A program made the position numbers and the translations under genes. From the NCBI GenBank assembly GCA_017304655.1, contig JAFKLY010000010.1, forward strand, positions 64,501 to 128,500: a stretch of DNA of 64,000 nt. The letters run 5' to 3'. Within the stretch, counting starts at the first letter, position 1. Each line of letters starts with the position of its first letter. Below the pieces are notes generated by a model, which was given only the letters and a program-made list of their open reading frames with translations, made no database searches and was not told the DNA's origin. The stretch is from Sphingomonas sp. GTDB lineage: Bacteria; Pseudomonadota; Alphaproteobacteria; Sphingomonadales; Sphingomonadaceae. Below are positions 9,215-12,227 of the stretch, piece after piece.

Positions 9215-9763
9215 TTATCTTGCCTGTTCCTTCAGCTCGACGGCAAGACCCGCCCGCAGCGACGGCATGCCGGCAGGCTCAGCAAAGAGGATGTCGTCCA
9301 CTTTCCACCCTCCTTCCTCGCGCAGCATGACGAAGCGGATGCGCCGCCGCGCGTTCCAACCGAGATCATACGAAACCACCGCCTCATAGCCCGGCCCGCG
9401 CATCTTGCGAACCGTCGTCGCCAGCACGGCAAAGCGCTTCGAATCCCAATCCTGGCATTGGCAGAACCAGTCGAAATCCGAGAAGGTCGTGACTTCATCG
9501 CGCGGCTGATGCGTTTGCCACTGGCGGATGAGATCGCGGGTGCGGCGCGTGTAAGGCGCCAGATTCTCGCTATAGCCCGGCCCCATCGGCTCGCGCTGGT
9601 AGATGGCGTAAAGCGCCTCGATGGTCGCCTTGATCTGCGCCGGTGCCGGATCGGGCGCCCTGGCCGCCAGCCCGCCGGGCGCGAGGCACAGCAGAGCGGG
9701 GATCAGGGCGGGCCAGCCTCTAGCCAAGGACCGGCTTCCAGTCCCAGCCGAGCGGGTCGCCAT
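9215..9763 (-). CDS. Exported DUF3828-like protein
   Basis: Up to 182 residues: a signal-like hydrophobic stretch (WPALIPALLCLAPGGLAARA), then an alpha/beta domain with WFCQCQDW, VRKMRGPGYEAVVSYDLG and RRRIRFVMLREEGGWKVDDI, the last typical of NTF2-like/DUF3828 proteins that end in a Trp-Lys-Val-Asp-Asp strand. Two starts are possible: ATG 9763, overlapping cysS by 44 nt, or TTG 9727, which gives a shorter, more usual signal peptide and has GGAAG upstream. Function unknown. It lies downstream of cysS in the same direction. Confidence 0.72.
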   Translation of the reverse strand: MATRSAGTGSRSLARGWPALIPALLCLAPGGLAARAPDPAPAQIKATIEALYAIYQREPMGPGYSENLAPYTRRTRDLIRQWQTHQPRDEVTTFSDFDWFCQCQDWDSKRFAVLATTVRKMRGPGYEAVVSYDLGWNARRRIRFVMLREEGGWKVDDILFAEPAGMPSLRAGLAVELKEQAR

Positions 9764-11405
9764 CCATCACCTCGACGCCCTGGGCGATGAGATCATCACG
9801 CAGCGCGTCGGATGCCGCGAAGTCCTTCTCCGCGCGCGCCTCCTTGCGGCGGATCAGCGTCGCCTCGATCTCGGCCTCCGTGATGGTCGCGGCCTTGGGC
9901 CGGACGCGCAGGTCCGCGCGGTCGAGCGTGAGCAGGCCGAGGCCGAGCACGGCGTCCATGGCCTCGACCAGTGCGCGCTTTTCCTCCGTCGGCACTTTCT
10001 TCACGGCCAGCGCCTCATCGAACAGGGTGAGCGCCACGGCCGTGTTGAGATCATCGCTCACTGCCTCGTCGAACCGGGCGAGCAGCGGCGCCAGCTTGGG
10101 GTGACGCACGGCATCGGCCGCGACCACATCCCTGAGCGGCGCGACCGCCATCACCATGCGCTTGAGGCGGGTGAGCGCGGCGGCGAGATGATCCCAGCCG
10201 AATTCCAGCTCGCTGCGATAATGCGCCTGCAGGCACATCATCCGGTACGCAAGCGGATGGAAGCCGCGATCGATGAGCAATTGCAGGCGCAGGAACTCGC
10301 CGGCCGACTTGCTCATCTTGCCGGTGCGGTCGATCAGGAAATTATTGTGCATCCAGAGACGCGCGCCGCTGTTCTGCGCGCAATCGAGATGGCCATGCGC
10401 GGCATCGAAGCCGGCGATCGCCTGATTCTGGGCAATCTCATTGGGGTGGTGAATCTCGCGATGGTCGATGCCGCCGGTGTGGATGTCGAAGGGCAGGCCG
10501 AGCAGCGCGCGGCTCATCACCGAGCATTCCAGATGCCAGCCCGGCGCGCCCTTGCCCCAGGGCGAATCCCATTCCATCTGCCGCGTCTCGCCCGGCGGCG
10601 TCTTGCGCCAGATGGCGAAGTCGGCATCATTTCTTTTGCCTTCAACTGAATCAATCCGCCCCTCTCGCAAAAGGGCGCGGGCCTCTCTAATAGATTCAAT
10701 TGCCGAATCTAGGTCTTCAAGGTTACCGAGCGCATGAGCTAGTCTTAAATACCGTTCGGAATTTGACTTTCTTTTGCTTGCATTTTCTAGAAAGTCTCGA
10801 AACTGCCGGATTTTTTCAAGTACCGCCTCTTGGCTATTTTCGGCCTGCTGAATACTGTAAAACCATTCGTTCGCAGCGGAGAGGAATTCGTCTTGCCGAG
10901 CGAGCCGGCCATAATCGGCCACGGTCGAGACGTCGAAATAGAGGCCCGAGGGCAGTTCGTAGCAGTGCCTGTCCGCGATGCTCTTCGCGAACTCGATCAT
11001 CTGCGGCACATAGTCGGTCGCGATGGACCAGTGGGCCGGCTGGCGAATGTTGAGCGCCTTTACGTCCGCCCAATAAGCCTGCGTGTAATGCTGCGCGATG
11101 TCCCAGATGGACTGCGCCTGCTGCGCCGCCATCTTCTCCATCTTGTCCTCGCCCGCATCGGCATCGTCAGTCAGGTGGCCGACATCAGTGATGTTGATGA
11201 CATGGGTGAGCTTGTAGCCCTTGAAGCTGAGCGTACGCCCCAGCGTGTCCGCGAACACATAGGCCCGCATGTTGCCGATATGCGGATAATTATACACGGT
11301 CGGCCCGCAGCTATAGACACGCGCCTCACCCGGATGGACGGGCTCGAACGGCTCCAGCGAGCGCGTGAGGCTGTTGAACAGGCGCAGGGGCACAGTGTCG
11401 GTCAT
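9720..11405 (-). CDS. cysS: Cysteinyl-tRNA synthetase with an in-frame insertion
   Basis: 561 residues, about 100 longer than E. coli CysRS. It charges tRNA-Cys. HIGH-type motif: CGPTVYNYPHIGNMRAY (residues 33-49); KMSKS at 363-367; zinc-site candidates are Cys33, Cys294 and the GGIDHREIHHPNE block at 311-323. That block and NITDVGHLTDDADAGEDKM differ from the common HGGGxDLxFPHHENE enzyme and suggest a divergent CysRS lineage. Residues about 172-246 interrupt the conserved YGRLA...EGKRNDADFAIW segment with a charged helical insert. The DNA for it (10681-10860) is about 42 percent GC by count, well below its surroundings. MTDTVPLRLFN is chosen as start; upstream codons are not conserved in type. 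Confidence 0.93.
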   Translation of the reverse strand: MTDTVPLRLFNSLTRSLEPFEPVHPGEARVYSCGPTVYNYPHIGNMRAYVFADTLGRTLSFKGYKLTHVINITDVGHLTDDADAGEDKMEKMAAQQAQSIWDIAQHYTQAYWADVKALNIRQPAHWSIATDYVPQMIEFAKSIADRHCYELPSGLYFDVSTVADYGRLARQDEFLSAANEWFYSIQQAENSQEAVLEKIRQFRDFLENASKRKSNSERYLRLAHALGNLEDLDSAIESIREARALLREGRIDSVEGKRNDADFAIWRKTPPGETRQMEWDSPWGKGAPGWHLECSVMSRALLGLPFDIHTGGIDHREIHHPNEIAQNQAIAGFDAAHGHLDCAQNSGARLWMHNNFLIDRTGKMSKSAGEFLRLQLLIDRGFHPLAYRMMCLQAHYRSELEFGWDHLAAALTRLKRMVMAVAPLRDVVAADAVRHPKLAPLLARFDEAVSDDLNTAVALTLFDEALAVKKVPTEEKRALVEAMDAVLGLGLLTLDRADLRVRPKAATITEAEIEATLIRRKEARAEKDFAASDALRDDLIAQGVEVMDGDPLGWDWKPVLG

Positions 11406-11630
11406 GGCTCGCTCGGTCAGAAAACGCGTTCTCTTGAGGCGCTTTCCACCCGCCGTCAACCGGGCGGGGCCGGGCTTTACTTCCGGATGGACATGTGCGC
11501 GGCTTAGAGTATAACTTGAAGTAACAGGTCAATATTACAGAATATTTCGTTATATTTCATATTGAAATACATCGGATTTTTACCCGGCAATGAAATCCTG
11601 CAGCTCCATTTCTGATGGAGGACTGTTACC

Positions 11631-12227
11631 ATGACCAGTATATCCGGGTCATTTCAAATGCACTCGATGCAATCCCCGCGCTCCATGATGGACAAGCGGA
11701 TCGATGCGGCGGTTTCAGCCGGGAGTATCAGCACGGAAGACCAGACCGCGCTGGACTCGGCGCTCGATGCCATTGACAGCACGCTCTCGGCCGGCAGTGC
11801 CAAGCAGACCAGCCGGCTCGCACCCGCCGACATGAAGGAGCAAATCGACAGCCTGATCGACGGACAGGTTTCCGCCGGCACGCTGACCGAGGATCAGGCC
11901 ACGGAACTGCGCAACTTCTTCGCACAGGGACCATCCGCAGCCGACGGAAGCTCGGCGAGCGGCACGGAAGAAACGGGCGAGCTGGCAGGGATCGGCGGCA
12001 CGCGGGGCATGCGCCCGATGGGGCCGCCGCCCGGTCCGCCGCCCGGCGGCAGCGATGAGGAAAGTTCATCGGACGACGAAACGAGCATCACCGACCAGCT
12101 TGATACGCTCATCGCGTTTCTCGAAAAGCTGCGGCAAAGCCTCTCGTCAGACAACGGCTACAGCCTTGCCGGCAGCACGAGCAGCGGCAGCACGGCCAGC
12201 GGTCTGGTCGTGGATCAGCTTGCCTGA
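11631..12227 (+). CDS. Hypothetical protein with a duplicated helical motif and Pro/Gly linker
   Basis: 198 residues, not recognised. Two related segments stand in tandem: MDKRIDAAVSAGSISTEDQTALDSALDAI (about 20-48) and MKEQIDSLIDGQVSAGTLTEDQATELRNFF (about 65-94). Both read hydrophobic-Asp, 'SAG(S/T)(I/L)(S/T)xEDQ', then a helix. A Gly/Pro linker GMRPMGPPPGPPPGG, an acidic Ser run and a helical C-terminus follow. No signal peptide is seen. GGAGG lies 9 nt before the ATG. Upstream DNA (11510-11600) is strongly AT-rich and probably holds the promoter. Confidence 0.78.
   Translation: MTSISGSFQMHSMQSPRSMMDKRIDAAVSAGSISTEDQTALDSALDAIDSTLSAGSAKQTSRLAPADMKEQIDSLIDGQVSAGTLTEDQATELRNFFAQGPSAADGSSASGTEETGELAGIGGTRGMRPMGPPPGPPPGGSDEESSSDDETSITDQLDTLIAFLEKLRQSLSSDNGYSLAGSTSSGSTASGLVVDQLA

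Follow-up and report, generated by a model that had tools for sequence, protein, structure and literature searches.

A low-GC helical insert in the cysteinyl-tRNA synthetase of a sphingomonad, probably exchanged between cysS alleles

The cysS gene of the window, i.e., the whole 64,000-nucleotide stretch of sphingomonad DNA analysed here, encodes a cysteinyl-tRNA synthetase (CysRS) with an in-frame insert of 80 residues at a point where nearly all relatives have 8. We consider this insert likely to be an accessory CysRS domain that cysS alleles gain or replace through short-tract recombination with one another, a reading that covers its origin and nature, not its function. Synthetase insertion domains are usually regarded as old, clade-wide features. 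Most species lack any domain at the CysRS loop described here, and the few per cent that have one carry differing low-GC helical domains, whose versions agree between genera and conflict among close relatives. Should the exchange be confirmed, the loop would offer a natural record of a new domain entering a housekeeping enzyme and would raise the question of what selects for variety on the CysRS surface. No account of sphingomonad CysRS inserts was found in the open-access literature.

The insert corresponds to residues 188-267 of the window CysRS and interrupts the conserved segment YGRLA...GRIDSVEGKRNDADFAIW, with its 80 residues lying between YGRLA and RIDSVEGKRNDADFAIW, where the relatives that were read out have about 8 (Table 1). 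The YG..DFAIW stretch spans 102 residues in the window versus 31-36 in all relatives read out; in the other relatives of the first survey, the alignment segments are interrupted at this point and leave no space for an insert of this kind. The original prediction had proposed some 65 extra residues inserted in frame in this gene; the extra segment is real and slightly larger, with a net gain of 71 residues over the 31-residue form of the stretch.

The GC content of about 42 percent, which had been described as far below that of the neighbouring DNA, was reproduced (0.428 for positions 10680-10859 versus approximately 0.60-0.65 around them). The GC3 of the insert is about 0.43, compared with 0.83 for cysS upstream and 0.86 downstream of it, and the lowest GC3 among the 2894 80-codon windows of the 64 kb (0.375) lies in the insert, the next-lowest gene being at 0.575. 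In approximately two-thirds of the own genome (2.46 Mb, 1958 ORFs), the insert is the sole credible internal 60-codon segment with a GC3 below 0.5, once four other listed ORFs are set aside as apparent out-of-frame readings, judged by eye. The acquired look ascribed to this AT-rich, foreign-looking segment inside an essential gene is in agreement with these values. The AT-rich tract continues past the insert to about position 10620, through homologous codons, and the last residues of the insert together with this flank, LREGRIDSV.GKRND, match those of L176, a carrier of the subtype A defined below.

Table 1. Features of the window cysS gene and CysRS inserts found in other genomes
Feature	Coordinates	Strand	Remarks
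cysS, cysteinyl-tRNA synthetase with insert	9720..11405	minus	561 aa; low end includes stop codon
80-residue putative accessory insert, RQDEF...LLREG	10659..10898	minus	replaces 8-residue linker; comparison with relatives, GC3, AF2 models (four helices)
13 homologous cysS codons (RIDSVEGKRNDAD)	10620..10658	minus	directly downstream of insert; AT-rich synonymous codons
Novosphingobium sediminis (L041), insert at CysRS loop			found by whole-protein scan
Sphingomonadales MAG (L042), insert at CysRS loop			found by whole-protein scan
Novosphingobium sp. 28-62-57 (L043), insert at CysRS loop			found by whole-protein scan

The ORF enclosing cysS extends from 9720 to 11459 on the minus strand (579 codons), with M at 11405 as the likely start. 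The protein passes TIGR00435 (356.3 bits, cut-off 340), matches tRNA-synt_1e (PF01406, E 2e-73) and is the single CysRS match in its own genome, which is 99.6% complete. Across 43 homologues, window included, the CGPTVYN.HIGN, GWHLECSVM, IHH..E and KMSKS columns are invariant, and the HIGN, KMSKS and Cys/His zinc-ligand motifs are kept; since the class I and zinc-site motifs are all preserved in the window enzyme, this otherwise complete protein is presumably active. The CysRS of Borrelia burgdorferi (PDB 3sp1), the nearest solved sequence, and that of E. coli (1li5/1u0b) have the same fold and motifs as the window enzyme, but a short loop takes the place of the 80-residue insert. In E. coli CysRS, this loop lies around residues 155-170, ahead of the GWHLECS motif of the zinc site, and its length varies among known CysRS structures. 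The best NCBIfam model for sphingomonad CysRS is PRK14536, which, together with the nearest structure coming from Borrelia, suggests that these enzymes may be a distinct CysRS subfamily.

Inserts at the same loop, located in the connective-peptide (CP) region between YG.L and R[IV]..V.GK, occur in 13 other sphingomonad species, which makes 14 carrier species with the window. They are low-GC, stop-free, in frame, mostly helical and about 40-98 residues long, and their GC3 is low in every case measured (0.31-0.58 versus 0.63-0.87 for the rest of the gene). When genome contigs were scanned with the full-length protein, three further carriers came to light, each with its insert at this loop (Table 1). 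With one genome surveyed per species, carriers amounted to at least 6 of the 384 genomes with a match in the family sample, 6 of 185 in a Novosphingobium-like genus sample and 4 of 94 in the own genus of the window, these frequencies being lower bounds because carriers were first spotted through matches that were split or weakened, and subsequently read. In the tree, the named rows closest to the window are Sphingobium species, which makes Sphingobium its probable genus. The comparison with relatives revealed a segment that is variable, as had been considered, and not unique, since other species hold different inserts at the same site; conservation of the same segment in all close relatives was not found.

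Nine of the 14 carriers have long inserts (80-98 aa) and five have shorter ones. Subtype A of the long inserts includes L041, L129, L176 and L137 (REDDL..., RK(S/A)LKKY.(D/S)L..IW), with the conserved ends R[EQ]D[DE] and REGRI, while subtype B includes L043, from Novosphingobium, and L175, from the genus of the window (SW Z 21.9). The two subtypes are related, with B members scoring 39 bits in leave-one-out searches. Comparisons among L041, L129 and L137 gave SW Z values of 12-43, six long inserts had leave-one-out HMM scores of 39-92 bits, and L152 and L132 were weaker members. By sequence, the long inserts make up a single fast-diverging superfamily, seen only in CysRS and so far only in sphingomonads. 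The window insert shares the site and the low GC3 of this superfamily, and its homology is marginal (7.9 bits in the leave-one-out HMM, a score reached by 3 of 1000 shuffles, and a Z of about 5 with L137), so it may have arisen separately. Four short inserts have exactly the same length, 49 aa measured from YG.L to the G/A-R motif, and the fifth has about 42 aa; no clear relationship connects the short forms with the long ones, and not every short form is clearly related to the others. L177 (genome G079, genus of the window) represents a third kind of about 42 aa with a GC3 of 0.31, which overwrites the otherwise conserved YG.L motif.

The relationships among the inserts contradict the enzyme tree. 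In the backbone tree, calculated with the insert removed, carriers are scattered among insert-less relatives and do not group; 4 changes are needed for each form, with 2 forced by starred branches, in a tree obtained by a quick method, with many open forks and with the G239 carrier (L137/L134) left unlabelled in the count. The window and L175, its nearest backbone, share 86% of their backbone amino acids and 14% of those of the insert, and the corresponding values for the window and L176, of the same genus, are 85% and 22%. On the other hand, L176 and the N. sediminis protein L041, from another genus, are 76% identical in the backbone and 55% in the insert. One way to account for the single fixed site, the detectable homology of the long forms and the conserved subtype A ends would be a helical insert already present in the CysRS of the sphingomonad ancestor, lost in most lineages and kept, with fast divergence, in a few. 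We regard this as unlikely, as it requires very many independent losses, each restoring a similar 8-residue linker (RA.TEEGE), insert similarity contradicts backbone similarity both within and between genera, and GC3 amelioration is absent from every carrier measured.

The codons next to the inserts are altered as well. The downstream flank of 14 codons, composed of the last G codon of the insert and the 13 codons listed in Table 1, has a mean GC3 of 0.61 in the nine long carriers versus 0.83 in 88 insert-less genes (p 6e-4), and its nucleotide identity to the nearest insert-less relative is also lower in long carriers (p 0.005), where these p-values treat carriers as independent and come from several tests on few genes. 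Long carriers are normal again from 17 codons downstream of the insert. On the upstream side, there was no significant excess divergence across the long carriers (p 0.26), and dips were seen in single cases, such as L129 versus L088 (0.63 nucleotide identity with 0.90 amino acid identity). Selection or local mutation after insertion could also have altered the downstream codons.

If unrelated stretches of AT-rich coding DNA had entered a tolerant loop by separate illegitimate insertions and had little or no function there, this would agree with the variable loop length in known CysRS structures, with the lack of clear common ancestry between short and long inserts, and with a window insert that has no close relative. 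Nevertheless, the SW and leave-one-out scores given above show homology among several long inserts from different genera, the amino acids of long inserts are under constraint (pN 0.33 versus pS 0.85 for L041 and L129), the four 49-residue short forms are identical in length, and the neighbouring cysS codons changed too, all of which makes such unrelated insertions improbable.

Repeated gain or replacement of inserts across sphingomonad cysS would be the best reading of these sequences. According to the recombination model that we favour, the insert would be a protein-level accessory domain in a naturally length-variable connective-peptide loop, and its source would be the cysS of another, lower-GC lineage already carrying such an insert. 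Short-tract homologous recombination, the route that we infer, would have been anchored by conserved cysS sequence on both sides of the insert and would have imported about 14 downstream codons along with it.

The palindromic elements of Rickettsia and Wolbachia are in-frame coding insertions that are repeated in many genes of one genome. The CysRS insert resembles them as a tolerated in-frame coding insertion in an essential gene, but it is present in one copy, has no strong palindrome and is confined to a single gene and site across genera. The suggestion that it might be a self-inserting element of this kind was not upheld: neither a strong palindrome nor a target duplication was detected, and the absence of an obvious palindrome that had been remarked on was corroborated, with imperfect arms only (19 nt at 74% and 11 nt at 91%), which do not coincide with the insert boundaries. 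Related segments in other genes of the own genome, searched for by protein and DNA, were not found, the insert giving one protein match and chance-level DNA matches only. HMMs of the inserts matched nothing but CysRS in 398 genomes of the family and 333 of the order, with no convincing other gene, and in 385 class genomes they matched CysRS only, apart from one marginal match (E 0.002). Repeated occupation of one loop of one gene, together with the altered downstream cysS codons, fits an exchange of cysS alleles better than the insertion of an element. A weak match in genome G090 (L032), which lies in a DNA methyltransferase-like ORF, and a match in genome G882 (L171) were judged to be due to chance.

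Donor searches with the insert alone gave nothing convincing in phages, plasmids, IMG/VR/viral contigs or genome contigs. CysRS genes are present in phages and plasmids, with 65% identity for the best of them, but none was retrieved with the insert as query. A single conserved site, a patchy distribution and an AT-rich composition are also reminiscent of homing or splicing elements, such as a mini-intein, an intron or a bypassing element, that would be removed from the product. We hold such an element to be highly improbable: the insert matches no intein in Pfam or NCBIfam, no intron family and no Rfam family at E up to 1, and shows no excess RNA structure (fold z -0.84). It begins with RQD and ends with REG followed by R, whereas an intein has a Cys/Ser start and an HN end followed by Cys/Ser/Thr; its size is 80 aa here and falls to about 40 codons in some other species, the inserts are always in frame without stops, and their amino acids are constrained.

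The pN and pS values of L041 and L129, the open frames of all inserts and the lack of an RNA family or fold signal indicate that the domain would act, if at all, as a protein. AlphaFold2 models, which the original prediction had called for, contained four helices both in context, at lower confidence (block pLDDT about 57-78), and for the isolated insert (mean pLDDT 80, pTM 0.68). We regard an up-down bundle of four helices, with the catalytic motifs left undisturbed, as the probable fold of the insert. A fold search with the insert alone returned generic four-helix bundles (FliS, HPt, cytochrome b562), without a significant Foldseek match, and Pfam, PHROGs, PADLOC and NCBIfam gave only weak, mutually inconsistent helical matches. 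A TPR repeat was considered and rejected (TPR_8 at 20.1 bits versus a gathering threshold of 25.7, over about 25 residues only, with no TPR match in other inserts).

The editing domains of IleRS, ValRS and LeuRS are likewise extra domains placed between the HIGH and KMSKS halves, as CP1 insertions in the CP region (PMC7373986). Unlike those family-wide, catalytic domains, the CysRS insert is helical, fast-diverging and present in a few per cent of species, and its comparison with CP1 editing domains gave no Pfam match and only generic four-helix bundles in the fold search. CysRS has been reported to need no editing, owing to zinc-based selection (PMC7373986). According to the passage on Iyer et al. 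in PMC13114784, lineage-specific insertion domains of RNA polymerase and other housekeeping enzymes mark lineages. The CysRS inserts resemble those insertions, so far as that passage describes them, in being extra domains accreted at tolerated loops of a universal enzyme, but their occurrence is sporadic, close relatives have different ones, and they disagree with the host-gene tree.

With respect to function, our guess is that the insert most likely acts on a protein-protein contact at the CP face of CysRS, either forming or blocking it. The net charge of the inserts, near neutral to acidic (-6 to +3, that of L129 counted on a shorter insert boundary), does not favour a tRNA-binding role. Patchy, fast-diverging alleles exchanged between genera would fit the evasion of a CysRS-binding inhibitor, toxin or phage factor, a guess that we offer as possible though doubtful; it is no less probable that the insert is neutral, stabilising or mildly regulatory. 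A pool of swappable helical domains, diversified by a CysRS-binding antagonist and serving as an allelic shield on a translation enzyme, is a rather doubtful extension that we mention tentatively. Cysteine is absent from all 1006 residues of 13 inserts (window, L041, L042, L043, L129, L130, L132, L133, L137, L152, L154, L175 and L176), which is only weakly unexpected, at about 1% for composition-matched windows if these are independent.

No insert-specific partner gene was identified among the cysS neighbours, and the downstream dehydrogenase is also present in an insert-less relative. Between cysS and infC, the plus strand carries a 198-aa ORF (11631-12227) with S/D-rich stretches and repeated EDQ motifs. 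Genomes G555, G605 and G386 contain a second CysRS with 36-43% identity, and G614 and G683 have a divergent CysRS only, which suggests cysS replacement in this group. Additionally, an ordinary-length cysS is located on the Sphingomonas parapaucimobilis plasmid NZ_CP155753.1 (285021-286439), a possible vehicle for cysS exchange.
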